Part shown: in pieces, positions 2,147 through 57,950 of the stretch
Position numbering within the stretch: position 1 is the first letter of the stretch
How the letters are laid out: each line of letters opens with the position of its first letter
Origin: Scenedesmus sp. ARA3
Taxonomy: Eukaryota > Chlorophyta > Chlorophyceae > Sphaeropleales > Scenedesmaceae
DNA: 64,000 nucleotides
Assembly: GCA_004335835.1 (NCBI GenBank)
Contig: RWJK01001210.1
Span: 97,289 to 161,288, forward strand
Direction of reading: 5' to 3'
The notes under the pieces: generated by a model
Database searches by the model: none
Seen by the model: only the letters and a program-made list of their open reading frames with translations
Told to the model about the DNA's origin: nothing
Position numbers and translations under genes: made by a program

Positions 2147-2180
2147 GCGCAGTAGCACGACCTTGCATGGGGGATTGACA

Positions 2181-27479: not shown

Positions 27480-27511
<32 letters not shown>

Positions 27512-37342: not shown

Positions 37343-40300
37343 ATGGCAAGCAACGCTGAGCTCGATGCCTGGACGGCGTTGGGCGGTTCGATTGAAAAGA
37401 AAAAGACGGGCAACCGCGAAACAAAAGTGTTTGTTGCCCCTGACGGTAAGTGATCGTGCTGCTGCCTGACTTCGTTGTTGTGGCACTGCTTCTGCTCTCC
37501 CGCCTTTGGGAGATTCTGACGCCACGGTGCTGCACTGGCCACAGGCAAGAAGCTAAAGACTTGGAAAGAAGCTTCTGAAGTCCTGAAGGCCGCAGGCGAG
37601 CAGGACAAGCACGGTGAGTGCAGCAGCAGCAGTTGTGGCAGCAACGTTGGCAGCAGCAGTGGCCCTGCACTGCATGCAGCCTACAGCATGTCTTGGGTAT
37701 GCTAACAACAAGCATGCGGCATGCTCAGGTGCCCTTGGGATGACTCCCAGTGTAAAAGCATGTGGATCATGCACACTTCTGACGGGTGCATGGCTACTTT
37801 CACCATGGGATGCGCACCTGTTGTTGCCCACCCACTGCTGCGCGTCCTGCAACCACTATAATTGAACTCCAGTACATGGTGCTCATCCCAACCACACGCT
37901 CACTGCCTGGCCACTCTGCTGCTGCTGCATGTCTACCTTGCGCCTCTTGTATTGCAGCCCGCAAGCGCGGCCAGGCTTCCCCCGATGTGGCAGCAGATGA
38001 CAAAGAGAACAAGAAGAAGCGCCAGAAGCAGCAGCAGGCAGCAACCCCCGCTGCCAAGGCCGACATCGACAAGTCTGCTGCTTCCGACAAGAAGCCAGCC
38101 GCCGACAAACCTGCTGCTGCTGCTGCTGACAAGAAGCCAGCTGCTGCTGCTGACAAGAAGGCAGCAGCTGCTGCGGACAAGCCCAAGGCCACCCCAAAGA
38201 GCAGCAACAAGCCAGCCGCAGCTAGCAAGCGCAAGTCAGCGGCAAAGGAGGCAACACCCGAGCCTGTGAAGGAGGAGGAAGCAGACGCTGCTGCTGCTGC
38301 TGCTGAGGAGGACAATGAGGCCACCCCAATGGAGGAAGACGGCGCAGCGCCAGAGCAGAACAGCGACGCAGCCGAGGCAAAGGCTGCTGCTGCTGCTGCG
38401 TCTGGCAGGCGTGCTGCGTCAGGTGTGAAGAGCTACAAGGAGGCTAAGGAGAAGAAGCTGGGCAGGAAGGATGAGGTGAAGGCCAAGGTGGAGCCCAAGG
38501 CTGAGAATGAAGGAGAGGCAGTGGCGCAGACGGCTGGCGAGAAGAGCAGCAGCATCCGCAGGTGTGGCATGGTGTTGCGGTGTTGTTTTTGTGTGGCCAG
38601 GATGTGCTGGATAGATGTGTGGCGTGTTCAGTGCACAGCTGCGCCCAGCGTGCTGCTTGCGTGTGCGCTAAATGCTTGCTCCTGTCCTTGTCGTGGGTGC
38701 TCGTCCTGCAGCGTGTTTTACTGCAGCCGATTGTAAACCAGCATCTTACAGCAGTTGTGGCGCCTTGCCTGCCGTCCCTGCCTGTTTCTGCAAGCTGACG
38801 TGGCCCTGGCTACCTTGCCCTGCTGCGCACGCCTGTGCGCTTGCTGCCTCTTCCTCTCAACAACTTACCCTCAGCTGTTCCTGCAACGGGCACTGACTAG
38901 CTTGCTCTGCTGCAATGCCTGTGTCCCCCCTGCCTCTTCCTCTCAATGCTGCGCAGGCTGCTCAACTTTGCCGTGGTGGATGACGAGGGTGAGCCGCAGC
39001 ACCTGGACCGCCTGGAGCTGCTGGGCAAGCCGATTCTGCTGTCAGGTGCGTGTGCTGTTTGTTAGCATGCTGGTGAATAATTCAGTGAGTCAGTGAGCAG
39101 CATGTATTTGGCAGCACCTGGGCAGGCTGGAGCTGCTGGGAAAGCCCATCGTGCTGTCAGGTGGGGTGTGGATGGACGGCTGCTGCTGACCGCTTTGTAT
39201 GACTGTGCAATGTTTGTGTGCGACGCGTACTCAGCAGCATGGCAGTGGCACTATAGGATCCTGTGGTTCTGTGTTGGCACAAGCAGAGTGTGCATGTTTT
39301 GCTGCACCTGCTGCACCGTATGTGCTTGCCGGTTCATCCACTGCCCCACACCGCCCTCCCCTCCTCGCCAGCCATCACGTCCAAACCGTGATTGCTGCGC
39401 AGGCTCCGTGTACCCCCCTTGCTGCAGCAACTCATTGCTTGCCCCATGCCTTCCACTGTCTTCCTCACCCACACCCAACCCTGCCACTCATATGTTGACC
39501 GGATGCTGCGCAGGCTCCGTGTACCCCGAGCAGGGCTCCCTCAGCAACAAAGAAACCGGCAGGCAGCTGCAGAAGCCCTTCGGGCCCATCACCAGCTGGC
39601 ACGTGCGCTACAGCAGCAGCAGCAGCAGCAGCGCTGCAAGCCCTGAGGTGGTTGCTGTGACAGCCAAAGCCAGCTATGTGCTGAGTAAGCCCAGCCAGGC
39701 CTACCGCAAGGTGTTTGCGGTGCTGGAGGAGCAGGCGGGGCTGGCAGGGTACGTGATGCAGGTGTGTTGAGGCAACATACAATGGCACGGAGGTGGTCTG
39801 CAGACGCGGAGTTGTGTGTTTGTCGTTTGTTGGTGTTTGGCGTGCTGGAAGAGCAGGCTGGGCTGGCCGGGCATGTTATGCAGGTGCGGCGGCTGCTGTA
39901 GTTGTTAGACAGGCAGATGACATGTGCAATATGCTTGTGTGTGCGGTGTTAAGGTAGCAGCAGCGTGCGGGGCTGGCCTGGCATGTTGTGCAGATGCGGC
40001 GACCGCGTTCAATGGCATGAAGCTGGTCTGCAGAGGTGCAGCCGTGTGTGTGGTGCTTGCACAGGGCGATGCAGTGAAGCGTTGTTTTTTTGGATGCACT
40101 GGCTCACAGCTTGTAATGCTATGTTTGAGAGTTCCTTTGTTGTTGTTTCTTGCTGCCTGCAGGCCATCAACCCTGAGCTGGGCGGCAGCGCATCCGCCTC
40201 GCTGGATGCCGTGGTGGCCAAGCTGGCGCGCGCCAAGGCGGGCAAGGGCTACGCCAGCGCACGCGAGGCGCTGCTGCTCAACGGCCGCTTCGTGCTGGGC

Positions 40301-41138
40301 CAGGTGCGCGGCTGTTGTCTGGTTGTTTGTTTGTTTGTATGGCAGGTGGGGCGGCAGCTGGGCCTGCAATGCAGCTGCTGCTCAACGGCGCTGCGTGCTG
40401 TGGCAGGTGCGTGGCTGTAGTTTGTTTATGTGTTTGCTTGTTTGTTTGTTTGTATGGTAGGTGGGGCAGCAGCTGGGCCTGCAATGCAGCTGCTGCTCGA
40501 CGCCCGCTTCGTTCTGGGCCAGGTGCGCGGTTGCTAGTTTGATTCGAGCTGCGCTAGCAATACGCTGGTGCAGTTGGGCAGGGGATTGCTGGCGCAGGTG
40601 GGCAAGCAGCACTGCTGGTCTGTGTTTCTTCCTGAGCTGCATGCGGCTTGTGGATGCACGTCATGCTCGTGACCTCTCACTGGTGCATGATGGGTCAACT
40701 GCACACAGGGGGCTGACACTTCTCTCTTTTGTGTGCTGCTGTATTGTGTGTGCTGCTGCAGGTGGCGGCGCACGAGGCGCGCCGCGGCGGTGGTACCAAG
40801 GCTGCTGCTGACAAGGGCAAGGGCAAGGCCCCCGCTGGGCTAAGCAGCGGGCCCTTCTACAGCGAGCTGGAGGCAGAGGTGGGTGCCGGAACCTGTGGCA
40901 ACATCTGGTTGGGATGATGTGACTGTGTGTGTGTTTCAGTGATGGGGAATCATGTGTACCGTTGCTGGGCTGAGCAGCGGGCCCTTCTGCAGTGAGCTGG
41001 AGGCAGCAATGGGTGATGATAATGGACAGTGGGCACTGGCGGGTGCAGCTGAGTGATGTGCATTTTCTTGTGGCAAGGCCCCCGCTGGGCTAAGCAGCGG
41101 GCCATTCTACAGTGAGCTGGAGGCAGAGGTGGGTGCTA

Positions 41139-41169
<31 letters not shown>

Positions 41170-44100
41170 AACCTGTAGCAACATCTGGTTGCGATTATGC
41201 GGCGGTGCATGTATCAGTATTGAACAGCAATGTGTACCTTTGCTGGCCTGAGCAGCGGGCCCTTCTACAGCGAGCTGGAGGCAGAGGTGCGCAGTGGGGA
41301 AATACATATGTTTCATATTTGGCAGGGGGCGGGGCAGCTGAGAAGCAAACACAGGCATCTGTATGAAGGGGCAGTTGCTGCTGGTGGTAGTGCTGGTGGC
41401 GGTGCGTGCTTCGGCAGCAGTCATCACTGTACAGAGGAGAGGAATGCTCAAATTCGCTGGCAGCAGGGGGTTGATGCATTTCCTTCTGCTCCCCGCTCTG
41501 CCCGACGTTGCGCTGCTTGCTATCTGCTGCTGCTGCTGCTGCTGCAGCTGGCCAAGGGGCCCATCCAGGTGGGGCTGGTCAGCGGCAACGCCATCAAGAT
41601 CCGCGACGTGCAGGCCGAGGGCGCCGCTGCTGCTGCTGCTGGCGGCTCCGGCGAGCCAGCTGACGCGCTGGCAGCTGCCGATGAGGAGATGGCGAGGCGG
41701 CTGCAGGCCAAGATGGATGCACATTCCATGGGTGTGGGCAAGTGAGTGTTGCATATTTATTCAAGGAATATGAGCGCTGCCTGAAGGGTCCAGCTGCAGC
41801 TGCTGCTGGTGATGGTGATTTTGTGTGGGCGCAGAAAGCTTGTAGTCTCTGAGAGGAAATGAGGACATTTGAGCAGCATTAGGATAAGAGCCGGCAGTTT
41901 GCAGGGAGGTGCTTGGTCACGCAGGAGATCTGGGTCTGCTCAGTTGTTGGCTGCAGGCCAAGATGGATGCACAGTCCATGGGTGTGGGCAAGTAAGTGTG
42001 GCAGCTGACAACAGTGCGCTGGTAAACTGCATGCGAACTTGCCGAATGTCCAGCTGGTTTGTCCTGTAGGTAAAGCAGTAGGAGATCTGGTGTAGCGCAG
42101 CTTGTTGGTTGGCAGGAATTGGGATTGTGCGTCTCCTAGCTAGTCGCCATTGCCATGCCTCCACTCGGGGCCCATCCCCTGCCAACCGTGGATACCTGCT
42201 GACCAACATCCTTGCTGCTGCTGCTGCTGCTGCTGCAGGGGCCGTGGCGGCGCTGCTGGCGGGCGTGGCGGCGCTGCGTATATCAAGATCAGCGAGGCTG
42301 AGATTGCTGACGACTACCCTATGCCCAAGCAGTACAAGGTGTGGAGTGTTGCACAGTTTGAGAAAGCAGGATTGGCCAGCAGCAGCAGCTTGCAGCAGGT
42401 GCCTGCTGCCATGATGGCTAGGGTTGGCTTCATGCCCAAGCAGTACAAGGTGACAGCAGGACGGGCCAGCAGCAGCACTCCAGCAGCAGCAGCCCGCGAG
42501 CTTGCTCCTGGGGTGTTTCTGCTGCCATCTGTTGTACAGGCACATAGTCTCTGCTGCACGGTCCCCTTTTGGGGTGCTAGCGGCTGGCGGCTGTGCAAAA
42601 CTGAGCGGCTGATCGAACTTGCTGCTCCTGCCTCGCTGCTGCTGCTGCTGCTGCCGCTGCTGCTGGCCAGGCGCCTGATGGCGTGGAGGAGACCGATGAG
42701 CTGCTGCTGTGGGATGAGGATCTGGCTGATGTGGACCCTGAGTGCCTGCCCAAGCACCTCATCACAGACTTCTCCATCTACAACGGAGAGGTGCGCTGCT
42801 GCTGACGCAATATGTTGGGTGTGAAACATACGAACGTAAGCAAAAGAGTTTGAACTCCGTTCAAAACTCCGTTCAAATGCATAACTAAGCGCTGCTGGGT
42901 GGGTGCAGAGAGGCCCTGTTGCGGCTGCCACTAGGCTGCCACTCTGCTTGCTCAGTATCAGTTTGCTTCTTCTCTCTTTTCGTTTGGATCACCTGCTCAA
43001 CCTGCTGTTGCATTGCTGCTCTGTTGCTCTCCCTCCTTGCCCTGCTTCCTCTGCTGCTGCTTTTCTTTCTTTATCCTTTTAGGGCTTCTTCGCAAGCCTG
43101 GAGCTTGCTCACCCCCCTGTTGCGTCGCTGCCATACTGCTCTCCCTGCTTCCCTGCTTCCCCTGCTCTTTCTGCTGCTGCTGCCGCTGCTGCTGCTGCTG
43201 TTGCCTCCACCCAGGGCTTCTTCGCAAGCCTGGAGCTGCTGCCGCTGTTGCGTTGCTGCTCTAATGCTCTCCCTGCTTCCCCTGCTTTTTCTGCTGTTGC
43301 TGCTGCTGCTGCTGTTGCCTCCACCCAGGGCTTTTTTGCCAGCCTGGAGCTGCTGCCGCTGTGGTCAGGAGTCGACCCTGACGTGGAGCTCTACGCCAGC
43401 GGCATCGTGAAAGCTGAGGAGGGAGACTGGGGCACAGGCGGCCAGCCGCTGCAGATCGAGCAGCAGCAGCAGCAGCCAGAGGCACAGCAGGCAAAGAAGG
43501 ACAGCAAGAAGAAGGGAAAGGACAAGGAGGAAGGCAAGCCTGCTGCTGCAGCTAGCGGCAGTGGTACAGGTGGCAGCAGCAGCGGCGCAGGCGGCAGCAG
43601 CAAGGCAGGCGGCAGCAGCAGCGCCGGCGGCTCCGGCTCCACAGCAGCAGCAGCATCAGCAGCAGAGCCAGCTGGCGCTGAGGAGGCTGCTGCTGCTGAT
43701 GCTGCAAAGGAGGTTGCTGTTGGTGCCGGGCCTGATCCTGTGGCTGAGGGAGGCATGCGGCTGTACCTGAGCCAGATCCGGGAGTGGGTGGTGGAGTTCA
43801 GCGCTGACATGCTGTTCATCTCCATCAGGACAGATGCCGCCTGGTACAAGCTGTGCAGGTGAGGCAAGAGGGGCTTCGCGCGGTGGTGTGAGGCAAGGCG
43901 GCAGCGGTGGTGGCAGCAGCAGACCGCATTGACCTTATGTGCAGCAATCCCCTCTGTTCGACCTATCTGCCGGCTTGCAGTGCCTGCTTGCCAGCGTGCA
44001 GTGCACATTAGGCGGTCCATTTCTCGCCCGAAAGGTAGCTCTCATAGCCCGTTGCGCTGTGCTCAAGCTTTCAACACTGCCGCCTGTTGCACTGCTGTAT

Positions 44101-47100
44101 GCTGCCCTGCAGGCCCAACCCCGAGTACGCGCCCTGGTACGGCGTGCCGCTCAAGTCAGCGCGCGTGGCTGTGGCGCTGATCAACATGCTGCAGCAGGAG
44201 AGCCGCGCCAGCCGGCTGTCCTTCGCTGACATCGTGAAGCGCCTGGCAGAGGTGCCGCCAGGCAGCCACACCTTCATCAGCAAGCGGGTGGGGGCCTGGT
44301 TGAATAGCTATCTACTGCGCATTGTTTTGCATCAAATGGCTGTCGTTTGCGGACATTGAAGCGCCTGGAAGAGGTGCCCCTCGGCAGCCACACCTTCATC
44401 AGCAAGCGGGTGAGCATGTGTGGTGACATTGGTTGGCTGGCTGTTTCCCGCGCATCGAATGTGCTAAAAGGTTTGCCTACTGACGGGTTATGTTGTCCGG
44501 GAACGCAGGTAGCAGGGACAGTGTTCACGGCAATGTTGCTGAATGTATTTGTACTGTTTCGCGTTCCCTGGCCACGAGTGGTGTTCACGCTGTGTCTGTG
44601 CAGCAGGAACGACTGGAGCGCTACCTGGTGGTGCACGGCCAGATGCTGCTGAATCAGATCAAATGGTTGACAACCTAACATGTTGTAATGACGTTATCTG
44701 CTGCTGTTGACTGCAGCCGGAGCGCGTGGAGCGCTACCTGGTGGTGCACGGCCAGATCCTGCTCAACCAGATCAACATGGTTCACAATGTAACACGTTAC
44801 AATAATGTTATTTGCTGCTTCTAACTGCAGCCGGAGCGCGTGGAGCGCTACCTGGTGGTGCACGGCCAGATCCTGCTCAACCAGATCAACATGGTTCACA
44901 ATGTAACACGTTACAATAATGTTATTTGCTGCTTCTAACTGCAGCCGGAGCGCGTGGAGCGCTACCTGGTGGTGCACGGCCAGATCCTGCTCAACCAGAT
45001 CAACATGGTTCACAATGTAACACGTTACAATAATGTTATTTGCTGCTTCTAACTGCAGCCAGAGCGCGTGGAGCGCTACCTGGTGGTGCACGGCCAGATC
45101 CTGCTCAACCAGCTCAAGGCCTACCCCAACCCGGCTGTGCAGAAGGCTCCCTTTGTGGGCAGCCTGCGCGAGAAGATGGAGGCGCGCAAGCACTCCAAGC
45201 TCTACTTCAGCAAGCGCGGCTTCAGCAAGGCGGCGGCAGTGCGCGCGGTCAACCGCAACCCCATGAAGGTGAGGGGGCGCAGGCAGCGGCGGGGTGGACC
45301 GTGCTGCTGTTGGATCGCTGATGATTCATAAAACAAACCCCCTCCTGTTGTGGCTGCTGCTGCATCTGGTCGCTTTCTAAAGTGCGATTCGCCTGCAAGG
45401 CTGCGCTGCCGTAGGGCTGCGCCAAGCCCAACCTGCTGCTGCTGTAGTGTTGTGGATATCCACTGCTTCCCCACTGACCTATCTTGCACCGCAAACAACA
45501 CCCCTCTGCAGGACCGCGCCGCCTCAGGCCGCGCCATGCCCATGCCCGCCACCGCCACCACCATGGTGCCGCTGGTGCTGCTGCTGCATCATCTGATCAC
45601 TAGTGCTTTGCAATTCACCCGCAGGACCGTGCCGCCTCGGGCCGCGCCAAGCCCATGCCCGCCACCGCCACCACCATGGTGCTGCTGCTGCTGCCGCTGC
45701 TGCTGCATCTAATCATTTGTTTGTCGTCTATGTATTTGCATCTGCAGGACCGCGCCGCCTCGGGCCGCGCCAAGCCCATGCCCGCCACCGCCACTACCAT
45801 GGTGCGCGCCATCTGGCAGAACTACTTCTCGGCCCTCGAGGAGGCCGGCAAGAAGGACGCGGCAGCAGCAGCAGCGGCAGCAGCAGAGGCCGCAGCAGCG
45901 GAGGGCGAGGTTGCAAAGGAGGTTGAGGATGATCCTCTTGAGGAGGAGGAGCAAGAGGAGGCAGGAGATGCTCAGGAAGATGCATTGGCAGGTGGCAGCG
46001 GGCCTGCGAGCCCCAAAAAGGCCAAGCGTGCCAGCCGCAGCAGCAAGGCTAAGGGTGGCAAGGAGGGCAAGGCTGCTAAGGCAAAGGAGGCCGCAGCAGC
46101 AGCAGCGGAGGGTGCAGCTGGCAGCAGCAAGCAGGCGGAGGAGGCTGAGCAGAAGCAGCAGAAGGAGAAGAAGGCAGCAGCGCCTCTCAAGGTGGGTGCA
46201 CAGTGCGTGTGTTGTGGTGTGGCGCAGGTGGAAACTTGCCTGCAGCGTTGTATGCGAATCCTTTTTTACTCCTGGCTCTCTGCGGCCTGTTGCATTGTAT
46301 GTATGCTTGGTAGGGGGTATCAGCTGCAGCATAGTAATCCACAGTTCAGCAGGTCTGCTTTCTTCACTCCTGCAGCACCCAGCCGGCTGGCAAGGCAATC
46401 CCACTGCAACGCTTCTTGCGATGTTTGCTGCTGTGTGTGCTTTCAGGTGACTTGGAAGGACGCTGGCGCTGCAGCTGAAGCAGAGGGCCTCACCATGCAC
46501 AGCTAGCTGCCAGTTGCTTGCCCTGCAGCCCTTCCTAACCTGTCTGTTGTGTGCTGCTGTGTGTGCTTTCAGGTGACCTGGAAGGACGCTGGCGCTGCAG
46601 CCGACAGCGAGGGCCGCACCAAGCACCGCAAGGCGCAGGTCAACTAGTGGCAATGCTTCTGACGTATCTGTATGTGTGCCACAATGTGTTGCAGGTGACC
46701 TGGAAGGACGCTGGTGCCGCTGCTGACGCCGAGGGCCGCACCATGCACCGCAAGGCGCAGGTCGGCACCTGGCAGCTGCAGCCGGGCAGTGTGGTGCTGC
46801 TTGAGGCGGAGGCGGAGGACGAGGATGCGCAGGAGCCGCCGCTGCTGTTTGGCCTGGTGCAGTGCATGTGGGAGGACGAGGACGGCGAGGCGCTGGCTCA
46901 GGTGCGGGGTACCATCCGTGAATCGGTGTTGCTTTGTGTTGGGTTTTTTGTTGTATGTGGTGTTGGTGCAGTCATGTGGGAAGACGAGGACGGGGAGGCG
47001 CTGGCACAGGTGAGGGGGCATACTTCAGGGATTGGTTGTGTGCTGAGTTGTTTGTTGTATGTGGTGTGGCTGCGCAATGGTGTTGGTGCAGTGCATGTGG

Positions 47101-49379
47101 GAGGACGAGGACAGAGAGGCACTGGCACAGGTGCGTCGACGGTGACAGTAGGAATGCATGTAGTTGGTTGCTGTGGATGGTGTGCTGGCACCCGCAGCAT
47201 CAGATGATGTTCTTTTCATTGTTGTTTGGCGCTCACAAGCATCAGCCAGCCATTGACAGCGCCCCAGCATGTGCCGGCAGCTGCAGCCTGCTACCAGTAG
47301 CCAAAATGCCTCAAAGTATGTGGAGCAGCTGCCCCGAATTGAAAATAACCAATCACAAACTGCTGACAATCAACACGCAATGGCTTGCTATGTCCCGCAG
47401 GTGCGCATGCTGGCGGCTTGACGCGACACAGTGCTGGGCAATGCTGCTGCTCACAAGCTAGACATAAATCGGCCTCTAACATTTTGCTCCGCATGTGCTG
47501 GCGATTCTTGCACCCGCAGGTGCGCATGCTGGCGGCTGGGCGCGACACGGTGCTGGGCGATGCCGCTGCCGAGGAGCAGCTCTTCCTCACGGCTGACTAC
47601 GAGGACATCGCGCTGGCTGACATCTCCGGTGAGGCCTGCTCATCAATCATCGGCTGTAAACCATAAAGATACAAATCATATGTCATATGCCTGTTAGATC
47701 ATGAGGCAGACAGTTGAATGTGTTCATGGCTGACTACGAGGACTTCGCGCTGGCTGACATCTCAGGTGAGCCCTGCTCATCATTCGTCAGCTACAAAACC
47801 ATAATATACAAACATATGTTATATGCCTGTTAGATCATGCGGCAGACAGTTTATTATCTTCATGGCTGAGTACGAGGACATTGCGCTGGCTGACATCTCG
47901 GATGAGGCCACCATGCTGTGGCTTTCGCTTCCATCAACCACATCCTGGCAGCAGACAGTGTAACAGGCATTTTGCATCATTTCGCCATGTTTCAGGATCT
48001 GCAGCAGCGGCAGCAGCAGCAGCACTTTCTGGCTGGCTCAGTGCCAGCTGTTGCTGTGCAGCTGCAATGTTACATTGACACTATTGTGTGCTGTGCCGCA
48101 GGCCTGGGCAACGTGGTGCCGCTGTGCCGCACATATGATCAGACTGCACACCTGTACAATTGTCTGATGCATTGCCTGTTTGTGTTGCCTGCTGTGCTTT
48201 GCTGCCGCAGGCCTGGGCAATGTGGTGGCGCTGCGCCGCGAGTTTGACCACGAGCTGCGCGTGGGCCAGTTCAAGCAGGACGAGGCGCTGCGCAGGCGCA
48301 ACGCGGCAGCAAAGGCAGAAGGTGCGGCTGGCCGATGCAGACAACAACCTGCACTTTCAGCGCATGCATGTGGCTTGCCATCGCTTTCAAATGTGATGCT
48401 CCTACTGGTTGCGTTGGTCTCCCTGCTGGCAGGGTCAGCTGTGTTCCTGTGGGCGTTGTAGCTCAACTCCTGCTGCTCCTGTCTTACCGCGAATTTGTTG
48501 TTGTGTATTTAATCAACCCCACGCAGGCAGCCCGCTGGAGTACTTCTAACGGCACCCCCTGCTGCCGCTGCTGAGGTTCAAGCTCCATGCTGCTCACCAG
48601 ATGTGCTCGCGTGCAACTTTGATGGTGCCTGCAGGCCGCCCGCTGGAGTACTCCTACTCTGCTGCTGCTGCTGTAAAGGCTTCAACGACTTGCTGCTGTT
48701 GCCTGCTGACGTGTGCGCTGCCGTTGACCATGCCTGCAGGCCGCCCTCTGGAATACTTCTACCGACACCTGTACCTGCCCCAGCAGGGCATGTTCAGGGT
48801 GCTGCCGGAGGAGCAGGACCTGCAGCTGGGCACCTACCAGGCTGGCCCCGCTGACCCTATCGAGCTGGGCATGCTGCCTGCTGACAAGGGCAGGGGCTTC
48901 ATCAAGGACGGCGTGGAGTACAAGTGAGCGCTGAGTGCGGCCATGAAATCTCAATGATGATGTGATGGATACTAGAGGTATCACAGACTCTGAAGATCAT
49001 GTTTTTGCTGCAAGGAGGGCGTGGAGTACCAGTGAGCTGTGGCTGCTATTTTAAAGAGTTTCAAACAGTTTTGAGATGATGAGAGTGCTTGGTGTTCTGC
49101 TGCCCCTGTGGAGCTGGGCATGCTGCCAGCTGACGAGGGCAGGGGCTTCATCAAGGACGGCGTGGAGTACAAGTGAGCGCGGCTGTGTGGAAAACAACAT
49201 TGTGATTGGACTTTGGCATACTGAAATGCAGTGGAAATTCAGTGGCTGCAATCTTGCATTAGGACAGACATCAAGGATGACGCGGAGTACAAGTGAGCGG
49301 CACACTTTGACAGTGCAGAGTTCAAATCATTGCTTGTATCAGCTGCCTGTTTTGCTTTTTTCAAGCGCGGTCACTCACC

Positions 49380-49442
<63 letters not shown>

Positions 49443-49492
49443 NNNNNNNNNNNNNNNNNNNNNNNNNNNNNNNNNNNNNNNNNNNNNNNNNN

Positions 49493-49553
<61 letters not shown>

Positions 49554-52500
49554 GCACAGTCCGCACGTACAGCCATTGACTGTGCGCACTCTCCTTGCTG
49601 CTGCTGCTGCTGCTGCCGCTGCTGCTGCTGCGCAGGGTGGGTGACTTCCTGTACGTGCACACCGACACCTTTGACGTGGAGGCGTCATCGGAGGAGGAAG
49701 AGGGCAGCGACGAGGAGGGCGAAGACAAGGAGAACAAGGTGAATGGCTGGTACTGCTGCTGCTGCTCTTGATTCCTCTTGCTTTTGAGCTTCAATCCTGC
49801 ATTCAAGCATGCATTCCGCAGCCGAGCAAATGCTGTCGGAAGTGACGCAGACTGGATAGTATCCCATGCATATCTGTCTGCTGCATCATCTTGCTGCTGA
49901 TGCATAAGATCACATCGTCACGTCTGCATCGTCACACAGTTTTCTTTCTGCGGTGCGCTGCAGGCGGTGCCTGCTTATGTGAAGAAGGGGCGCTTCCACA
50001 AGGGCAGCTGCGCGGGGCTGCGCGCCTGGGGCATGGCACGCCTGGTGGAGGTCAAGGAGGCTGGCAGCAGCAGCAGGGGCAAGGACAAGGTGCGAGCCTA
50101 CTTCAGGACCTTTGAGCGTCTTTGTTGCAGCATGTGCACGCAGACAGTGCACAACAGCCTGCTGTGCTGCCTGGCAAGCTGCGGCTGCAGCGCGTCTGCA
50201 TAGCCTTGCCATACCCTGCACACCACATAGTTATGCACATGTTTTACATGACCTTGACATGCCGCAGGCTGCCGCGCTGCCGGGCAAGCTGCGGCTGCAG
50301 CACTTCTGCATCGCCTTGCCCATTCCTGGCACACGCGTATCGTTATTCACGTGTTCTCACACCCTGGACATGCATCGCCTTGCCCGTGCCTGGCACACGC
50401 GTATCGTTACTCACGTGTTTCCATACCCTGGACATGCCGCAGGCTGCCGCGCTGCCCAGCAAGCTGCAGCTGCAGCGCTTCTCCTACCCCACCCCTGCCA
50501 ACACCCTGCCCATGCTGTCACATATCCCATTCTTTGCGTCTTCTTCTTTCTAAGTGTTTGTTCTTTCGGTCTTCTTGCAGGCTGCTGCGCTGCCCGCCAA
50601 GCTGCGCCTGCAGCGCTTCTTCAGGCCCGAGGATGTGGGCAAGGAGCAGGCCTACCAGGCGGGCTTCTGGGACGTGTACGCCTCGCCAGCGCCCGCCAGC
50701 GCCAGCAGCAGCGAGGGCTGGGTGCACTGGGTGGAGCCGGACAGCGTGATCCGCAAGTGCTGCGTGAAGGCGCCCGGCGCTGACACGCCTGCAGGTGCGG
50801 CAAAGCGAGCTACAGCTGCATGCGTGTTTTCGCTGTTGTTATGGCAACCGGTGTGTGCCTCAACTTGCTTCGGGCTTGGGGTGCTTAGCGCTGCCTTGTC
50901 AAGCATTCACGCATTGCACACAATGCACTCACAGCGCCTGCGGTTTGTCATGTCCAGGTCATCCCTTTCAATCATACTGAATCACAGATCAGCATACTTA
51001 ATCCTGGATTTCTGCAACCACCTTGATCCTATTCCTGCAGGCTGTGAGGATCTGGACTGCTTCGAAGTGGTCGGCACCTTCAACCCCGCCACAAAAGAAG
51101 TTTCCGCAGCACCCGAGGAGTTCTCCGCAGCCAGCGCAGACATGCAGGTTGACGGTGCAGTAGCAGCAGAGACCGACAACAGCCTTGCCATGGCAACGAT
51201 GGACATCTTTGCCGGCTGTGGAGGCCTCAGCGAGGGCATGCACCAGGCTGGTGTGGCTGACACCAAGTGGGCGATCGAGTACGAGCAGCCGGCTGCGGAT
51301 GCGTTCAAGCTGAACAACCCTGAAGCAGCGGTGTTCTGCAACAACTGCAACGTCATCCTGCTGGTGAGTGATTTGGTTGGTAGGGGATAGCCTCTGACTT
51401 TGCACAGCCTGCAGGCTGCGCTAGCCCTGCTGCTTTTGTCAACCTGGAGGTTGCATAGAGGCAACCCATTTGTGAGTGCTCTGCGGTTTGCGGCTCTTTA
51501 GATGTGCTTGCTAAGCTGCTGCGGATGCGTTCAAGCTGAACAACCCTGAGGCGGCGGTGTTCTGCAACAACTGCAACGTCATCCTGCTGGTGAGTGAGGA
51601 GAGGGGCCTGACGGTGGCATGGGTTGCTGAGTGCTATGAAATGGGCGAAAGAGAAAGCTGTCAAGCCTGCAGGCTGCACCAGCACTGCTGTATTGTCCTG
51701 GTGGTGCCAACGGCAATCGACATGCGCATGCTTGACGGCTGCAATGTTCCATAGTTGCTTGCTGAAAGTTGGCTGATGCCTTCAAGCTGAACAACCCCGA
51801 GGCAGCGGTGTTCTGCAACAACTGCAATGTCATCCTGCTGGTGAGGGCACAGGGCTGGTTTAGGGTTGGGTTGCGTTGGGTGATGACTGTATGGGGTGGG
51901 ATGCGCATGACGTGTACATGCTGTGTGGTTGCGTCTGTCTAGATGTGCTTGCCGAAGTGTTGCAAGTATTGCAGCTACCTGACAGCAGACAGCAGCAGAC
52001 AGCCAAGAACGCAGCCGCCCTGCACCTGTGCTGCGCCTGTAGTTGCTTTCCGCACCCACCCTTCTCTTCACCAACACATGCAATCTGCGACATCAACCCT
52101 CTTTTTTGCTATCTTCTCAACTGACAGTACCTTGCTGCTTATACCCTGCATCTATTCTACAGGCCGCCATGCGCAAGGCCGGCCTGGAGAGCGACTGCGA
52201 GGCCTGGAGCGCGACTGAAAAGCCTTTTCAACCGACAGCACTAAACTGCCCTCACCCTGCATTCAATATCATCTTGCAGGCCGCCATGCGCAAGGCGGGC
52301 CTGGAGAGCGACTGCGAGGCCTGCGATGACGCCAAGACAGCAGCAGAGGCCATGTCGCCCGAGGACTATGCTGCGCTGCCTCAGCCTGGCCAGGTGGAGT
52401 TCATCATGCCGCTGCTGCTGCTGCTGTTCTCTGCACTGCAGGCCACGAGCGCAAGGCCCGCAGAAACGTGGTTCAAATAATGCTTTATACTCAACATGCT

Positions 52501-55500
52501 GCTAAATTCCTGCACTCTTTTGCAGGCCGCCATGCGCAAGGCCGGCCTGGAGAGCGACTGCGAGGCCTGCGATGACGCCAAGACAGCAGCAGAGAACATG
52601 TCGCCCGAGGACCTTGCCGCGCTGCCTCAGCCGGGTCAGGTGGAGTTCATCATGGGCGGGCCGCCCTGCCAGGGCTACTCGGGCATGAACCGCTTCAACA
52701 AGGGCAACTGGAGCATGGTGCAGAACAGCATGGTGAGTCGGCTTGTGATTTGGTGCGCATGGCTAGGCCTGTGTGTGCTTGTAAGTCCTGGGCAGTGGTA
52801 TGAACCGCTTCAACAAGGGCAACTGGAGCATGGTGCAGAACAGCATGGTGAGTCGGCTTGGGTGTGGGGTTTGGTGCACTGTCTGTGTGTGCCTGTTTCT
52901 GCCAGGGCTACTCTGGCATGAACAGGTTCAACAAGGGCAACTGGAGCATGGTGCAGAACAGCATGGTGAGTCGACGTGGGGTGTGGTGCACATGGCTCGG
53001 CCTGTGTGTGCTTGTAAGTCCTGGGCAGTGGTATGAACCGATTCGACAAGGGCAACTGGAGCATGGTGCAGAACAGCATGGTGAGTCGGTTGGTTAGTGG
53101 CACTGCTGCAAAACATGGTGTAGAACAGCTTCGTGCAGAACAGCACGGTGAGGCCAGGGGTCCTGCTGCACTATCTATGCACAGGCACATTTGCTGCAGC
53201 ACAGGCTGCTGACGCCGCAGACGTCACACATACCACTTGCTGCTGCTGCTCCCACAACCGGTATGCTATTGCGCAGGTGATGTCCTTCCTGAGCTACGCC
53301 GACTTCTACCGCCCGCGCTACTTCCTGCTGGAGAACGTGCGCAACTTTGTGTCCCACAACAAGAGCTTCACCTTCCGGCTCACGCTGCGCACGCTGCTGG
53401 ATATGGGATACCAGGTGAGGGCATGGTTTGCTGCTGCTGCTGCTGCTGCTGTTGCTGCTTGGGTTGCTGCTGTTGGTGAGGTTGGTGGGGTTGCTGCTGC
53501 GCACGCTGCTGGACATGGGGTACCAGGTGAGGGCTTGGCTGCTGCCGCAGACTCTGAGGTCGTTGCCGCTGAGGTTGCTGCTGCTGGTCGAACACGTATC
53601 ATCCACCTGTTGCAGCATTCAGGAGACCAGGTTGTGGTTATCCCAGACGCATCTAAGCAGTAACACTGTGTGGTCGTTGAGAACAGTTCTTTTGCTTGCC
53701 TATGATGTTGTCTGCTTGCGCTGCTCCCTCAACTATCCATGTCTGCACCGTTGACTCTCTCTTTCTCTCCTTCTTCTGTCTTGCTCTGCATGCTTTTAGG
53801 TGCGCTTTGGCGTGCTCAACGCGGGCAACTTTGGCGTGCCGCAGTCGCGCAAGCGCACCTTCATCTGGGCGGCAGCGCCCGATGAGGGCCTGCCAGAGTG
53901 GCCGCGCCCCCGCCACGTGTTCAGGTGCGGGTTGTTGCAGCCGAGTGCAGCCCATCTGTAGGCAGCACTGTGAGCTCAACCTTTCCTTACCCAGCAGTGA
54001 GTGGCCACGGCCCCGCCATGTGTTTAGGTGCGGGCAATGACAAACGCGGATCCTTAACTAGGCCAATATATAGTCAGCCTTGCATGGCTGCCTGCACGAC
54101 CTGTGCACTGGTTCCATTCAGAACCTGGCATTGCTGCATTTTACCTGAAGCCCAATGCTCCCGCACGCTGTAACCCATCATGCGTGTGTCTGTTTGCGGG
54201 TGCTCAACATCCCTTTGCATGTTGTGCCTGCTGCTGCAGGAGCCCGCAGCTCACGGTGAACCTGCCCGGCGGCGTGTTGTACTGCGCCGTGGACACCAGC
54301 ATTCCCAGCGCTGCTGCTGACCTTTCGTTGCCTGTCGCTGTTGCTGCCGCAGGAGCCCGCAGCTCACGGTGAACCTGCCAGGCGGCGTGTCCTACTGCGC
54401 TGTGGACACAAGCATCCCCGGAGCGCCGCTGCGCACGGTCACTGTGCGCGACGCCATTGGGGACCTGCCCAACATCCAGAACGGCCACGACAAGTGAGTC
54501 CCTGCAACACTTTGAAAACATCCTTTGCACACCAGTTGTATCATGGTGGGCAGCTCAGAGCCGACCTGTGCAGCATACAGAAACGCCACAGCAAGTGCAT
54601 GGATGTGCGCCGGCAGCAGCAGCGGCAGCAGCAAGTCCAATTGGTGCAATGTGGTGATGTTGCCGTGATGTCTGGCACTTCATACTCAGGAGGCTGCCGA
54701 AGATACTTCACGCCTCACCACTGCGTCAGCATCTGCACCTGCAGGCACACCCATGCAGTCGTTGTCTATGTGTGCAATGCTGCTCGTTCGCACTCACTGA
54801 ACCTGCGTGTGTATCTGCTGCTGCTGCTGCTGCTGCTGCTGCAGGGACCCCATGCCGTACAGCGGCCCTGCCGTGTCTGCCTTCCAGAAGCTGATGCGGC
54901 ACAAGGCCAGCGAGCTGCGCGACCACATCTGCAAGGAGATGAACGAGCTCAACCTGGAGCGCTGCAGGTGCGGCTGCTGTGATGCTGGAGTTTTTTTGTT
55001 GGGTGCTTGACTGCACGATGCGGGGTTTGATGTAAACCAGATTCATCTGCAAGGAGAACGAGCTCAACCTGGAGCGCTGCAGGTGCGGCTTATGTTTGTG
55101 CAGGTGCTATGGTGCAGTGTGTGCTGGGTGTTGCTTGATGGCATATGCGACCACATCTGCAAGGAGATGAACGGGCTCAACCTGGAGCGCTGCAGGTGCG
55201 CATGTGTTGTCACCCTGCAGATACATGTGGATGATGCAGTGGGTGCTGTGGAGTTTGGGTTGCAAAGATGCATCTGCAAGGAGATGAACGGGCTCAATTT
55301 GGAGCGCTGCAGGTGTGCATTTCGCATCCTGGCAACCATGACATAACAAGAACTCCAGCACCCAACACGTGTCGTGGCTGTGGTGCATGTGAGGGAGCAT
55401 GAGCGCAGACTAATGCTCAAGAGTGAACCAGCCTTTTTTAACTTATCATCACAGGCACGTAGCTCATGTCTGCGTGCTGGCCGCCTGCCTGTCGTGCCCA

Positions 55501-56461
55501 CAGGTGCATCCCCAAGGACACGCCTGGCGCTGACTGGCGCACGCTGCTGGAGATTGTGAAGAACGACCCCAGCAGGGAGAAGTTCAACGTGAGCTGTGCT
55601 TTATTCATTGTTACTTGTGTTGGTATGGCATTGCATGTGCGCGTTGTTCAGTATCATTATACGCAGCGCCGCCTTGCAGATTCTGAGGTTGCTGGCTCCT
55701 TGTAATTGCTGCTGCTTGAGCAGCATCTCATGTCCCAGCAGCCGCTGCACAGCAGCTGCAATCACCCACACATTGCCTACCCTCTCCTGGCTCTGCTGCC
55801 ATCATCCTGAGCTTGGCCCAGAATCACAGTGATGCTAATCAACCCGCGTCCTGCGCTGCGCCCTCTTTTCATACCAACAGGGCCAGCCGCTGGTGCCCTG
55901 GTGCCTGCCCAACACCGCGGACCGCCACAACGGCTGGCGCGGCCTCTTTGGCCGGCTGGACCTGGCGGGCCACTTCCCCACCAGCACCACCGACCCGCAG
56001 CCCATGGGCAAGGTGGGCCAGGTGTTCCACCCCAACCAGGACCGCATCGTGAGCGTGAGGGAGTGCGCGCGCTCGCAGGTGAGGCTGCATTGGTTGACGT
56101 GAGTTCACTGGGTTTGTCATGTATGTTTTAAATGTGTGTTCTCTGCTGCATGCGCACCTGTTCTTTTGCACAGGGCTTCCCGGGGGCCCTGCTTTCTCAG
56201 CGGCAACACGTGCAGTCACCCTATCAGGGTCCAACCTAGGGTAATGCATGTGCTCTTTTGCTGACTGCACATCGTGTCCGGCATTGTCCATGTGCACTGC
56301 AGGGCTTCCCGGACCACTTCTTCTTCAGCGGCAACGTGCACAGCCGCCACAGGCAGGTCGGCAATGCAGTGCCGCCCCCGCTGGCAGCCTCCCTGGGACG
56401 GCAGCTGCGCAAGGCGCTCGCAGCCACGCAGCAGAAGCGCAAAGCTACCTTGCTGTGGTAA
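37343..56461 (+). CDS. MET1: DNA (cytosine-5)-methyltransferase, DNMT1/MET1 type
   Basis: MET1 copies CpG methylation onto new DNA behind the replication fork. Thirty exons fit in phase (about 1,898 residues): 37343-37445, 37545-37613, 37958-38561, 38957-39045, 39514-39761, 40163-40303, 40762-40878, 41548-41741, 42239-42338, 42671-42790, 43329-43858, 44113-44287, 45059-45268, 45748-46191, 46695-46901, 47520-47628, 48211-48321, 48740-48923, 49636-49738, 49964-50089, 50581-50794, 51041-51363, 52526-52732, 53277-53414, 53800-53924, 54353-54493, 54845-54967, 55504-55588, 55881-56078, 56303-56461. Domains: Lys/Ala-rich N-terminus; RFTS1 (about 259-420); RFTS2 (about 540-800, [20 protein letters not shown]); BAH1 (about 1065-1210); BAH2 (about 1250-1410). 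Catalytic motifs are intact: [12 protein letters not shown] (about 1455), [12 protein letters not shown] (Cys about 1555), VI LLENV (about 1595), [21 protein letters not shown]. Nearly every intron carries exon echoes. Confidence 0.95.
39113..39160 (+). repeat. Echo of MET1 exon 4 end
   Basis: It reads [15 protein letters not shown], against [15 protein letters not shown] in exon 4, and is followed by a GTGGGG donor 115 bp after the real one. Confidence 0.9.
39403..39417 (+). repeat. Echo of MET1 exon 5 acceptor
   Basis: TGCTGCGCAG and the first 15 exon bases (GSVYP frame) recur 111 bp before the real acceptor. Confidence 0.8.
39838..39993 (+). repeat. Two echoes of MET1 exon 5 end
   Basis: Copies of [14 protein letters not shown] end at 39883 and 39993, with donor-equivalent spacings of 122 and 110 bp. 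The second has lost its GT donor. Confidence 0.85.
40366..40522 (+). repeat. Two echoes of MET1 exon 6 end
   Basis: Copies of the [11 protein letters not shown] end occur at 40366-40406 and 40480-40522, each followed by a GTGCG donor. Spacings are 103 and 116 bp. (TTTG)n runs lie between them. Confidence 0.85.
40960..41286 (+). repeat. Three echoes of MET1 exon 7 end
   Basis: Copies of [15 protein letters not shown] end at about 41009, 41128 and 41286. The second and third keep GTG donors; the first lost its donor. A (CAG)n run lies between the last two. Confidence 0.9.
41951..41991 (+). repeat. Echo of MET1 exon 8 end
   Basis: [14 protein letters not shown] recurs with a GTAAGT donor 250 bp after the real donor. 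Confidence 0.9.
42424..42450 (+). repeat. Echo of MET1 exon 9 end
   Basis: MPKQYK followed by a GTGACA donor recurs 112 bp after the real donor. Confidence 0.75.
43082..43328 (+). repeat. Two upstream echoes of MET1 exon 11 start
   Basis: [13 protein letters not shown] starts occur at about 43082 and 43211, before the real exon start at 43329. They are joined by shared CT-rich intron sequence. Unit length is about 118-131 bp. Confidence 0.85.
44354..44409 (+). repeat. Echo of MET1 exon 12 end
   Basis: [17 protein letters not shown] recurs with a GTGAGC donor 122 bp after the real donor. Confidence 0.9.
44604..45058 (+). repeat. Four tandem echoes of MET1 exon 13 start (113-114-bp unit)
   Basis: Units start at 44604, 44717, 44831 and 44945; the real exon starts at 45059. 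Each holds an acceptor, the frame [18 protein letters not shown] and an AT-richer intron tail with AATGTAACACGTTACAATAA. The units at 44831 and 44945 look identical, so the last expansion is recent. Confidence 0.95.
45512..45747 (+). repeat. Two upstream echoes of MET1 exon 14 start
   Basis: Starts at 45512 and 45625 repeat [18 protein letters not shown] of the real exon (45748). Spacings are 113 and 123 bp. CTG runs follow each copy. Confidence 0.92.
46447..46694 (+). repeat. Two upstream echoes of MET1 exon 15 start
   Basis: Starts at 46447 and 46573 repeat [16 protein letters not shown] of the real exon (46695), with CTTTCAG acceptors. Spacings are 126 and 122 bp. Confidence 0.92.
46965..47130 (+). 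repeat. Two downstream echoes of MET1 exon 15 end
   Basis: [16 protein letters not shown] ends recur near 47009 and 47130, each with a GTGAG or GTGCG donor, about 110-120 bp apart. Confidence 0.88.
47401..47460 (+). repeat. Upstream echo of MET1 exon 16 start
   Basis: CCCGCAG and the VRMLAA frame recur 119 bp before the real exon. The copy contains an in-frame TGA where the exon has a GGG codon, so it cannot be coding in this frame. Confidence 0.88.
47725..47905 (+). repeat. Two downstream echoes of MET1 exon 16 end
   Basis: Copies of [12 protein letters not shown] end near 47765 and 47902. The first keeps a GTGAGC donor; the second reads GATGAGG, a lost donor. Confidence 0.88.
48102..48135 (+). 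repeat. Echo of MET1 exon 17 start
   Basis: GCCGCAG and the GLGNVV frame recur 109 bp before the real acceptor, then diverge. Confidence 0.82.
48527..48660 (+). repeat. Two upstream echoes of MET1 exon 18 start
   Basis: PLEYF-like starts after CGCAG or TGCAG occur at about 48527 and 48632. The first is followed by a frame-breaking TAA. Confidence 0.82.
49014..49296 (+). repeat. Three downstream echoes of MET1 exon 18 end
   Basis: Copies of KDGVEYK before GTGAGC-like donors end near 49032, 49172 and 49294. The middle one is longest ([21 protein letters not shown] region). Confidence 0.85.
49382..49551 (+). repeat. (CA)n microsatellite interrupted by a 50-N gap
   Basis: A CA dinucleotide tract lies in MET1 intron 18. 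Exactly 50 N occupy 49443-49492, so the tract length is unknown. Confidence 0.97.
50165..50515 (+). repeat. Three upstream echoes of MET1 exon 21 start
   Basis: Copies of [13 protein letters not shown] occur at about 50165, 50270 and 50444, before the real exon at 50581. The last two keep a GCCGCAG acceptor. Intervening sequence (CACACGCGTATCGTTA) is also repeated. Confidence 0.9.
51515..51840 (+). repeat. Two downstream echoes of MET1 exon 22 end
   Basis: [18 protein letters not shown] and the rest of the exon end recur, ending at 51589 and 51840 before GTGAG donors. Spacings are 226 and 251 bp, about twice the usual unit. Confidence 0.92.
52163..52525 (+). repeat. Two upstream echoes of MET1 exon 23 start
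   Basis: [14 protein letters not shown] follows an AG acceptor at 52163 and at 52280; the real exon starts at 52526. The second copy runs for about 128 bp, to QVEFIM, just before the PCQ motif. Confidence 0.92.
52797..53152 (+). repeat. Four downstream echoes of the MET1 exon 23 end
   Basis: [16 protein letters not shown] plus GTGAGTCG donors recur with donors at 52848, 52966 and 53081. A shorter fourth copy ends near 53151. Spacings are 115, 118 and 115 bp. The copies lie just 3' of the catalytic PCQ motif; the third includes part of QGYSG. Confidence 0.95.
53497..53526 (+). repeat. Echo of MET1 exon 24 end
   Basis: RTLLDMGYQ with a GTGAGGGC donor recurs 112 bp after the real donor. Confidence 0.88.
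53993..54027 (+). repeat. Echo of MET1 exon 25 end
   Basis: EWPRPRHVF with a GTGCGGG donor recurs 103 bp after the real donor. Confidence 0.88.
54240..54310 (+). repeat. Echo of MET1 exon 26 start
   Basis: [20 protein letters not shown] recurs after a CTGCAG acceptor, 113 bp before the real exon. Confidence 0.92.
55042..55312 (+). repeat. Three downstream echoes of MET1 exon 27 end
   Basis: [18 protein letters not shown] copies end at 55082, 55195 and 55312 before GTG donors. Spacings are 115, 113 and 117 bp. Confidence 0.93.
56173..56215 (+). repeat. Echo of MET1 exon 30 start
   Basis: A CACAG acceptor and GGCTTCCCGG start recur about 128 bp before the last exon, then diverge with small deletions. 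Confidence 0.75.
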
Positions 56462-57950
56462 GCGCAGCATGTGTTGCGCTGCGCTGGCGGCTCCGCTTGC
56501 TGGCTGAGGCAGCTCATTGGGAGGGGCTGGGGAGGCAGCAGCGGCGCAGGCAGCAGTGCGAAAGCGGCATTCCCTGTTTTGAGGCTGTGATGAGGCGGGT
56601 GGTAACAGAGCGGTGACAGAGGTGTGATCATGGCAGTGGCAGAGGCGAGTTGGTGTCCGGACAGCTGCCGTGCAGGCAAGCTTGATAATGCTGGTGTAGG
56701 CAGACAGGCCTGGGTGGGGGTGGTGAACTGCAGTAGGGTTGTGTGTGTGGTTTGGTTCTGTGTATTGGCAAGGGCTAGGGGATGGTATGGACAAGCTGCA
56801 ATGTCAGCTTCTGCCATGTGCTACTTGGGTTGTAGCAAGTAGTCGGAGCTGTTTGGGTGTTCAGTGTACAGCTCAGCAAGCAACCCAGCCTGTGCTCTGC
56901 ATGTACATGCATGTGCCTAACCAGAGTATCAGAGCACACAGTGGGTTGCTTGCTTGGCAGGGTTGAATATGGGTGTACATCGCACAGAGTTTCCGCAGGG
57001 GGTTTCCAGCATGTACATCAACATGCTTGCAAGCAGTGCATCACGCCTGGTGATCATGGTTTATAGCCAACGGTCCAAACGAGTGTATAAACAGGTTCCA
57101 TCTAGTCGAGTGCATGTGCTGCCCCTGATGTGTGCTGCTCCTGTGCAGCAGTTTTGCCAGGTTTGAGTGATGCTGTCACTGCGTTCCACAAAGTGCGCTG
57201 GTGTTTTGCGCATCGTGTAAAAGATTGGGTTGGCAGGCTGTCTGGCCGCTGGACATGTCTGTAACAATGCACCTACATGCACCTTCAATGCACCCTATGG
57301 TGCCATCGGCAATGTCTGGTGCTGCAGCCACCATAGCAGCCTGTTACTATAGCAGCTACCCACCCCGCCTCAACTCAGACAACTTGTAGCACAAAGCACT
57401 GTGACCTGGCTCACTGGCAGTGCAGGCTGCGCAGCGTGAGTTATGCACGCCATCAGCCTGGCCATGTCTGCTAGCAGTGCCGGTGCAGATTACACATGGT
57501 TGGAAACCAAGTATGAACACAGCCACATGGCTGCTACTTGCAGCTGACCCATTCATTATTTCGTTTTGAAACAGCGCGCGCTCATCATCATGATCTTACC
57601 CATCAAGCCATAGCACCAACGCCAAAACAGTGTGCGCTGCACAGGCAGCAGCGTGCTGCTCCATGAGGGAAACTTTGATGGCAGTGTGCGTTGCCCGCAC
57701 AGCACAATAACAGCCGCTGAGCATCCAGCTATCTCCTGGACCAATCAACTTGATGGTAAGTTGCCAAGGTAGCAGAGGGCCACATGCCCGCCCGCCGAAG
57801 AGCAAATCAAGGCTCATGGGGTCCACAAAACATCAAGAAACATTTTGAGTAGCACACGGTCACTGACCGTGGCTGGTCCAGTCATCCGGTGACAAAATCA
57901 CCGGCCTCAGCAGTGTCAAACGACAGGCATAATCTTGGTCAAAACACCAT
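56462..57950. other. Gene-free stretch downstream of MET1
   Basis: No exon chain or domain was recognised on either strand. The nearest TGTAA lies about 800 bases after the MET1 stop, too far to assign with confidence. The stretch lies between convergent genes. Confidence 0.5.

Follow-up and report, generated by a model that had tools for sequence, protein, structure and literature searches.

Exon-edge copies at preferred distances within the introns of a DNMT1-type gene and other genes of Scenedesmus sp. ARA3

Here we describe a 64,000-nt window (positions 97,289 to 161,288) of the 161-kb contig RWJK01001210.1 of the green alga Scenedesmus sp. ARA3, in which the introns of a DNMT1/MET1-type cytosine methyltransferase gene, here referred to as MET1, hold copies of the edges of their own neighboring exons. 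These copies are referred to as echoes. The window has a GC content of 53 to 60% in 4-kb steps and also carries UTP21 and, at its left end, an MCM-type gene; the genome searched comprises 87.3 Mb in 1,567 contigs, and its GCA/TGC repeats, exon structure, and gene content are consistent with a green alga. With exon ends placed by eye, MET1 reads as a single intact frame of 5,697 nt over 30 exons, with all echoes remaining intronic; its introns are of the GT-AG type, and its product matches the Pfam entries DNMT1-RFD, BAH, and DNA_methylase. Among the copies of an exon edge, the true one was chosen by frame and continuity and not by site strength, and true splice sites are, by definition, those closest to the opposite end of the exon. 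The 29 introns total 13,422 bp (mean, 463 bp); a published comparison (PMC5966456) gives a mean intron length of 462 bp for Tetradesmus obliquus, which has a GC content of 57%, and of 230 to 302 bp for four other green algae.

Each MET1 border was searched with a probe made up of the first or last 60 exon bases, and p-values were obtained per border from 200 control windows taken from other MET1 introns. At p ≤ 0.01, own-exon echoes were present in 22 of the 29 introns and at 28 of the 58 borders (16 donor and 12 acceptor), with about 0.6 expected, in agreement with an initial annotation made from the letters of the window. The MET1 list of copies with a score of at least 15 has 59 entries, with successive spacings mostly of 100 to 140 bp, and the introns with an echo are 224 to 1,162 bp long, those without one 99 to 395 bp. 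In a test based on predicted exons, matches on the correct side of a border were compared with a wrong-side control, which speaks against chance or composition as the source of the copies: the counts were 37/66 versus 9/66 for MET1, whose predicted exons include echoes, and 5/22 versus 0/22 for the remaining genes of the window. Among the confident predicted exons of 25 other 10-kb stretches (two of them all N and a few partly N), echoes were found at 43 of 233 borders (22/119 acceptor and 21/114 donor), versus 11 of 227 in the control (4/115 acceptor and 7/112 donor). MET1 is therefore richer in echoes than the average locus.

The annotation had also listed UTP21 and the MCM-type gene as carrying the pattern, and both do (Table 1). 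MCM genes elsewhere in the genome, picked by Pfam and not by their echoes, gave 6/18 borders (5/10 acceptor and 1/8 donor) against 1/14 in the wrong-side control, and the Pfam table of these genes itself displays repeated exon edges. In all, the roughly 0.3 Mb examined contained 136 border-spanning copies. When the gene finder used for the sampled loci was trained and run on MET1, it returned 29 of the 30 exons exactly, together with 17 extra in-frame exons, all of which overlap listed echoes. Since it also tends to bridge genes outside MET1, the predicted exon lists hold errors and some echoes.

The nearest copy was located for 73 borders, a set that leaves out a MET1 paralogue described below and any copy failing the score or spanning rule. 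At 61 of these borders the distance lay within 90 to 159 bp (mean, 120.7 bp; standard deviation, 14.0) and at ten within 220 to 260 bp (mean, 245.8 bp), with one value at 160 to 219 bp, one above 260 bp, and none below 90 bp. The expected distance near 115 bp, with a further class at about its double, thus reappears as modes at 121 and 246 bp, although two distances in the paralogue (171 and 188 bp) fall between them. Spacings in the main mode span 92 to 155 bp, the mean nearest distance is 116 bp in MET1 and 124 bp at the other loci, and 118 of 136 successive steps between copies fall within 90 to 159 bp. Outside the 73-border rule lie a weak 84-bp copy in MET1 intron 22 and a nonspanning copy at 66 bp. 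Of the ten double-length spacings, two have a middle copy, while in eight none is detectable. Multiples of three are not preferred (38:32:48 for spacing modulo three), and a contribution of the echoes to in-frame exon extension was rejected on this ground.

Searches that make no use of exon borders gave a similar picture. Exact 14-mer pairs in the 25 sampled stretches peak at lags of 90 to 160 and 220 to 280 bp, with smaller counts at 10 to 80 bp, and exact-word lags within the window peak at 100 to 119 and 220 to 259 bp, with counts also in the 20- to 99-bp bins that are partly due to minisatellites. Self-alignment with BLAST, for which a first run was replaced by one with stricter scoring, yielded 103 exon-touching duplications, with 63 lags of 80 to 159 bp, 3 of 160 to 219 bp, and 24 of 220 to 259 bp, versus a single duplication (lag, 183 bp) lying wholly within an exon in 14.4 kb of exon interior. 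A further 68 duplications touched no predicted exon; this class holds minisatellites and missed exons, and its lengths are broader, with 45 in the range of 60 to 159 bp.

The length of MET1 introns follows the number of echoes they contain, at 247 bp plus 118 bp per echo (Spearman coefficient, 0.89; 53 border-spanning copies with a score of at least 18). The length of intron 18 is approximate because it contains a 50-N gap, which is flanked by a CA repeat (window positions 49381 to 49551). Outside MET1, a slope of 118.6 and a weaker correlation (Spearman coefficient, 0.35) were obtained from 73 introns, each lying between two neighboring exons predicted with confidence; 7 of these introns carry an echo. 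Tandem duplication across splice junctions, with stepwise growth of the intron, is very probably the origin of the pattern, as had been proposed. The data do not show intron gain: it is existing introns that lengthen.

A second DNMT1-type gene on C1552 provides a view of the same borders in a related gene. Its modeled exons (16, 18, and 21 to 30, with a donor end of exon 16 that is not GT) correspond one by one to those of MET1, exons 23 to 29 being of the same or almost the same length. Echoes were seen at acceptor (A) and donor (D) borders 16A, 24A, 24D (three), 25A (two), 25D, 26A (two), 26D, and 29A (two) and weakly at 21D; the nearest copy lay at 122 to 140 bp for six borders and, for three, at 171, 188, and 222 bp. 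In a comparison by eye, the two genes have five echo-bearing borders in common, eight belong to MET1 only, and three or four to the paralogue only, and at 24D, the sole border compared letter by letter, echoes are closer to their own exon than to that of the other gene. As the two echo sets are largely separate, many echoes postdate the gene duplication or have been homogenized since. The paralogue has one additional intron of 288 bp in its counterpart of MET1 exon 23 (L032, reverse strand, 4713 to 5000); a duplication origin was rejected for it, as its similarity to the flanking exon is limited to a simple repeat.

The copies had been thought to decay passively and often to have lost their AG or GT. 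For the splice dinucleotides this does not hold: spanning copies keep the acceptor AG in 73 of 75 cases (24/25 in MET1 and 49/50 elsewhere; p = 1.2e-6 against an assumed retention of 0.88 squared) and the donor GT in 54 of 63 (27/30 in MET1 and 27/33 elsewhere). Strong decay is seen in the intron part of the unit and is mostly absent from the exon part. Within 15 bases of the border, identity on the exon side is 0.77 to 0.91 in exon-echo and echo-echo pairs; at 16 to 40 bases into the intron, it is 0.28 to 0.34 for donor and 0.37 to 0.55 for acceptor echoes, against a background of 0.25 to 0.29, and exon-echo pairs alone give 0.29 to 0.34 versus 0.25 to 0.27 for donors and 0.41 to 0.45 versus 0.26 to 0.29 for acceptors. 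Exon parts remain about 90% identical regardless of the state of the intron part, their mean divergence being 0.08 where the intron side is more than 80% identical and 0.115 where it has reached background; exon copies diverged to a score below 18 go undetected, and these figures are capped accordingly. Neither distance nor order from the exon had an effect on exon-block similarity. In young arrays (MET1 introns 12 and 23, L014, and L026), the whole unit is duplicated and the intron part is nearly identical, and the intron half is therefore present there. The pattern thus includes a divergence plateau independent of age, as in concerted evolution, which the detection limit partly helps to produce.

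Differences between exons and echoes are distributed over the codon in a coding-like manner. In 128 ungapped blocks, they fall on the three positions as 138:105:357 and amount to 290 synonymous and 227 nonsynonymous codon differences, 5 stops included. Random placement of every change on the echo would give 118, 397, and 14.3, respectively, an expectation that is an upper bound as part of the changes lie on the exon side. The third-position share is 0.586 (95% confidence interval, 0.535 to 0.638; 67 borders, six border-adjacent bases left out); with the border bases included, it is 0.587 for MET1 alone, 0.599 for other loci, and 0.627 for MCM loci. A neutral echo beside a constrained exon would give 0.44 to 0.46, and simulated data in the same pipeline gave 0.42 to 0.44; the observed values match nonsynonymous change in echoes at about 0.3 to 0.6 of the neutral rate. 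Private changes are distributed over the codon positions as 3:1:23 in the true exon and as 25:20:45 in the echo, where older exon changes may be included. Among echoes, nine sister pairs gave 4:1:11 and 19 other pairs 12:10:40. Unfiltered MET1 alignments showed a weaker signal (68:72:135; third-position share, 49%) because unrelated ends were included.

The annotation had asked how the spliceosome ignores decoy sites, and this question becomes sharper. A profile derived from other loci gave donor scores of 6.64 at true sites, 6.49 at echoes (3 of 30 without GT left out), and 0.43 at random intronic GTs, and acceptor scores of 6.18, 4.64 (1 of 23 without AG left out), and -0.24, respectively. 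The true site outscores its best echo at only 12 of 28 borders, with ties at 6. Since echo sites are about as strong as true ones, position must decide, and exon definition, an established principle, would be the simplest selector of the true splice sites. Recursive AG|GT ratchets were considered and rejected: echo-bearing borders are not enriched in them, with 9/19 of AG-ending versus 7/10 of other donors and 2/6 of GT-starting versus 10/23 of other acceptors bearing echoes. Cassette exons were likewise rejected as a class, although single echoes may differ, as echoes do not have the complementary site at their far end more often than controls in general (21% versus 31 to 40% for 62 donor echoes; 11.6% versus 9 to 16% for 69 acceptor echoes). 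At a stricter threshold there is one exception: strong donor sites are slightly overrepresented at acceptor echoes (3/69, or 4.3%, versus 1.1 to 2.1%).

To account for these data, we propose that duplication of about 120 bp across splice junctions recurs, is tolerated through the innermost pair of sites used in exon definition, and is followed by exchange with the true exon, a reading to which we assign a probability of roughly 0.58. The unit that spans a splice junction and duplicates in tandem, lengthening the intron, would measure about 120 bp or, in fewer cases, about 245 bp. The frame would survive provided that the true exon keeps the innermost acceptor-donor pair; exon definition would then pair those sites that face each other across the exon at the shortest distance, and outlying copies would become intron. 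Units lying wholly within exons are presumably purged by selection. After its birth, a copy would diverge in its intron half but stay close to the true exon in its exon half and splice consensus. Echoes may keep exchanging sequence with that exon by gene conversion or unequal exchange, other alleles included, so that the constraints of the exon would be imposed on intronic copies. Judged from sequence comparison, such exchange is a slightly favored reason for the preservation of echoes. As to the preferred length, we would guess that the mutation process sets its upper limit and splicing accuracy its lower limit, near 90 bp.

Several observations weigh against this proposal. Plain exchange with an echo that is itself neutral is not enough to increase the third-position share; for that, echoes would have to come under selection indirectly, by transfer of their sequence into the exon, or the exchange would have to involve other alleles. 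The 7 of 12 informative site pairs that are incompatible among copies are weak direct evidence for exchange, since parallel changes on a star-like tree could give the same result, and the sister-echo evidence comes from nine pairs only. Undetected copies scoring below 18 help to produce the divergence plateau, retention of the donor GT is not significantly above the assumed 0.88 per base (p = 0.07), and the exons of the sampled loci were predicted ab initio. The missing middle copies of the double-length spacings are not accounted for by array decay alone, and the paralogue distances of 171 and 188 bp lie inside the gap between the two modes. These two distances, which fall within 160 to 219 bp, slightly lower the odds of a further reading that we consider less likely than not, in which duplication is quantized at about 121 and 246 bp and leaves a stock of interchangeable working exon edges, with coding constraint reaching outside the frame by exchange or by occasional use of an echo.

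Among the alternatives to recurrent duplication with exchange, a function of the echoes as alternative, competing, or stepwise splice sites, with the exon part being read often enough for selection to act, would fit their site scores, their coding-like constraint, and the in-frame exons that the gene finder reads on them in MET1. We nevertheless consider it unlikely, as matching sites at the far end show no general excess, spacings have no bias toward multiples of three, and AG|GT borders do not carry echoes more often than others. Less probable still is false duplication in the assembly, by which short pieces of both alleles in a heterozygous strain were placed in tandem: exon-echo differences do look allelic (synonymous, with diverged introns), the spacing is close to the length of short reads, and the window has a 50-N gap, but arrays of four or five graded copies, the variation of the main-mode spacing, the different echo-bearing borders of the paralogues, and exon interiors nearly free of copies, which an artifact would not avoid, all argue against it. 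Neutral fossils, that is, random border-spanning tandem duplications that only decay, would account for the whole-unit duplicates of recent arrays, including their intron part, and for the echoes without AG or GT, and heavily decayed copies would escape detection; this is improbable given that exon-block divergence barely rises as the intron part decays, that stops are depleted and AG is kept, and that the third-position excess occurs in both exon-echo and echo-echo pairs and is lacking in the simulated neutral echoes. It is equally improbable that only the exon end and splice site (about 40 to 100 bp) were inserted into the intron, for example, by repair synthesis and without a full tandem unit, since, even though many copies stop about 12 bp past the splice site (where the probe itself ended) and eight double-spaced copies lack a middle one, intron sides at 16 to 40 bp are on average above background and nearly identical in young arrays, and the codon bias is left unexplained.

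The system resembles intron gain by tandem duplication and border-spanning duplications such as that of potato RdRp, for which a second duplication, of 83 bp and within an intron, is also mentioned (PMC4974935); a review (PMC3443670) and Drosophila cases (PMC2891723) belong here as well. The likeness lies in short duplications within a gene, including across an intron-exon border, with splice signals derived from the parent copy; in contrast, here existing introns lengthen, a unit near 120 bp is preferred, and copies are conserved. With minisatellites, or variable-number tandem repeats, the arrays share head-to-tail units of equal length, as seen with Tandem Repeats Finder (TRF), and growth by whole units, but each array here represents its own exon edge, the unit length is similar across unrelated loci, and the exon part is conserved. 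Introners are transposon-derived intron generators. They likewise reshape introns on a large scale; however, the 532-bp array of MET1 intron 12 matches only itself in the genome, and no dispersed family was seen. Searches with two 6-kb pieces for dispersed copies returned, among the best 40 of 253 and the best 40 of 301 candidates, the paralogue, simple repeats, and C915. The latter matches (G000 C915, about 27377 to 27714) are of 81% and 78%, lie 255 bp apart, align with a GCA-rich part of exon 14 in MET1 (about 46090 to 46182), and may be low complexity. Recursive splicing sites (PMC10156609) are also splice sites within introns, some at exon-end-like AG|GT; echo-bearing borders are not enriched in that motif. 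Exon-edge duplications of a preferred length inside introns were not found described in the literature searched, which left subscription papers mostly outside.

The data amount to a quantitative account of how introns lengthen in one gene, where each event adds about 118 bp to a base of about 250 bp, with signs of this in other genes. They also offer decoy splice sites that are nearly perfect and form a natural series graded by distance from the real ones, together with an apparent coding-type constraint in intronic DNA, and they allow one to ask how introns lengthen and how the cell chooses the right site among near-identical decoys.

Table 1. MET1 and the exon-edge echoes of the window (window positions; lags in bp from the true border)
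Feature	Position	Strand	Details
MET1, DNMT1/MET1-type cytosine methyltransferase gene	37343-56461	+	30 exons, 29 introns; hand-set exons, open reading frame, Pfam
MET1 intron 4	39111-39416	+	donor echo 39111-39170 (lag 115); acceptor echo 39393-39416 (lag 111)
MET1 intron 5	39832-39996	+	two donor echoes, lags 122, 232; second with AT instead of GT
MET1 intron 6	40352-40533	+	two donor echoes, lags 103, 219; also TRF period 115
MET1 intron 7	40964-41289	+	three donor echoes, lags 130, 250, 408; first with AT instead of GT
MET1 intron 8	41949-42003	+	donor echo, lag 250, 94.5% over 55 bp; middle copy not found
MET1 intron 9	42432-42452	+	short donor echo, lag 111
MET1 intron 10	43081-43248	+	two acceptor echoes, lags 114, 246; also TRF period 114
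MET1 intron 12	44338-45003	+	donor echo 44338-44412; four acceptor echoes 44599-45003, steps 113-114; youngest units identical; TRF 44599-45117, period 114 x 4.6
MET1 intron 13	45393-45676	+	three acceptor echoes, lags 123, 236, 349; farthest with AA instead of AG
MET1 intron 14	46436-46664	+	two acceptor echoes, lags 122, 248
MET1 intron 15	46964-47450	+	two donor echoes, lags 108, 229; acceptor echo, lag 119
MET1 intron 16	47724-48147	+	donor echoes, lags 137, 273 (second with AT instead of GT); acceptor echo, lag 109
MET1 intron 17	48523-48657	+	two acceptor echoes, lags 105, 213
MET1 intron 18	49011-49299	+	three donor echoes, lags 108, 249, 369; 50-N gap in intron
MET1 intron 20	50155-50482	+	three acceptor echoes, lags 138, 313, 423
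MET1 intron 22	51518-52461	+	donor echoes 51518-51597 (97.5%), 51772-51845; acceptor echoes 52152-52206, 52274-52379
MET1 intron 22	52437-52461	+	weak acceptor echo, lag 84, score 16.5
MET1 intron 23	52787-53152	+	four donor echoes, lags 115, 233, 348, 415; also TRF periods 115, 233
MET1 intron 24	53496-53538	+	donor echo, lag 112
MET1 intron 25	53999-54317	+	donor echo, lag 103; acceptor echo, lag 113
MET1 intron 26	54563-54597	+	donor echo, lag 101
MET1 intron 27	55044-55315	+	three donor echoes, lags 115, 228, 345
MET1 intron 29	56167-56253	+	acceptor echo, lag 129, 66.7% identity
UTP21 (by Pfam)	11065-11608	+	acceptor echoes 11076, 11196 (predicted true border 11315); donor echo 11601 (border 11488, 69% identity); TRF period 119
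UTP21	15360-16058	+	acceptor echo 15372 (border 15471); donor echoes 15951, 16053 (border 15805)
MCM-type gene (MCM_lid), left end of window	2147-2342	+	donor echoes 2223 (GT), 2331 (GC); predicted exon border 2131

Two MET1 arrays have an inner structure of their own. A 64-bp tandem duplication is nested in the echo array of intron 20 (50307 to 50437), and the end of exon 23 together with intron 23 (52666 to 53152) shows by eye a higher-order structure, its periods being 115 and 233 bp; it looks as though duplication of 115 bp had come first and duplication of two such units second.

The predicted end of the MCM-type gene (1331 to 2131, plus strand) and the predicted exons at 58384 to 59087 on the minus strand encode a near-identical peptide (from ALNEVLTGLFGPTNDGAAYLADI to EYDELPAEQRW). 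The minus-strand predicted gene has a weak match to Ulp1 protease (Peptidase_C48) at its opposite end, and a segmental copy or a gene fusion is suggested as the source of the common peptide. Ordinary minisatellites are present in the window at 57946 to 58185 (43-bp units) and 62536 to 62704 (17-bp units).

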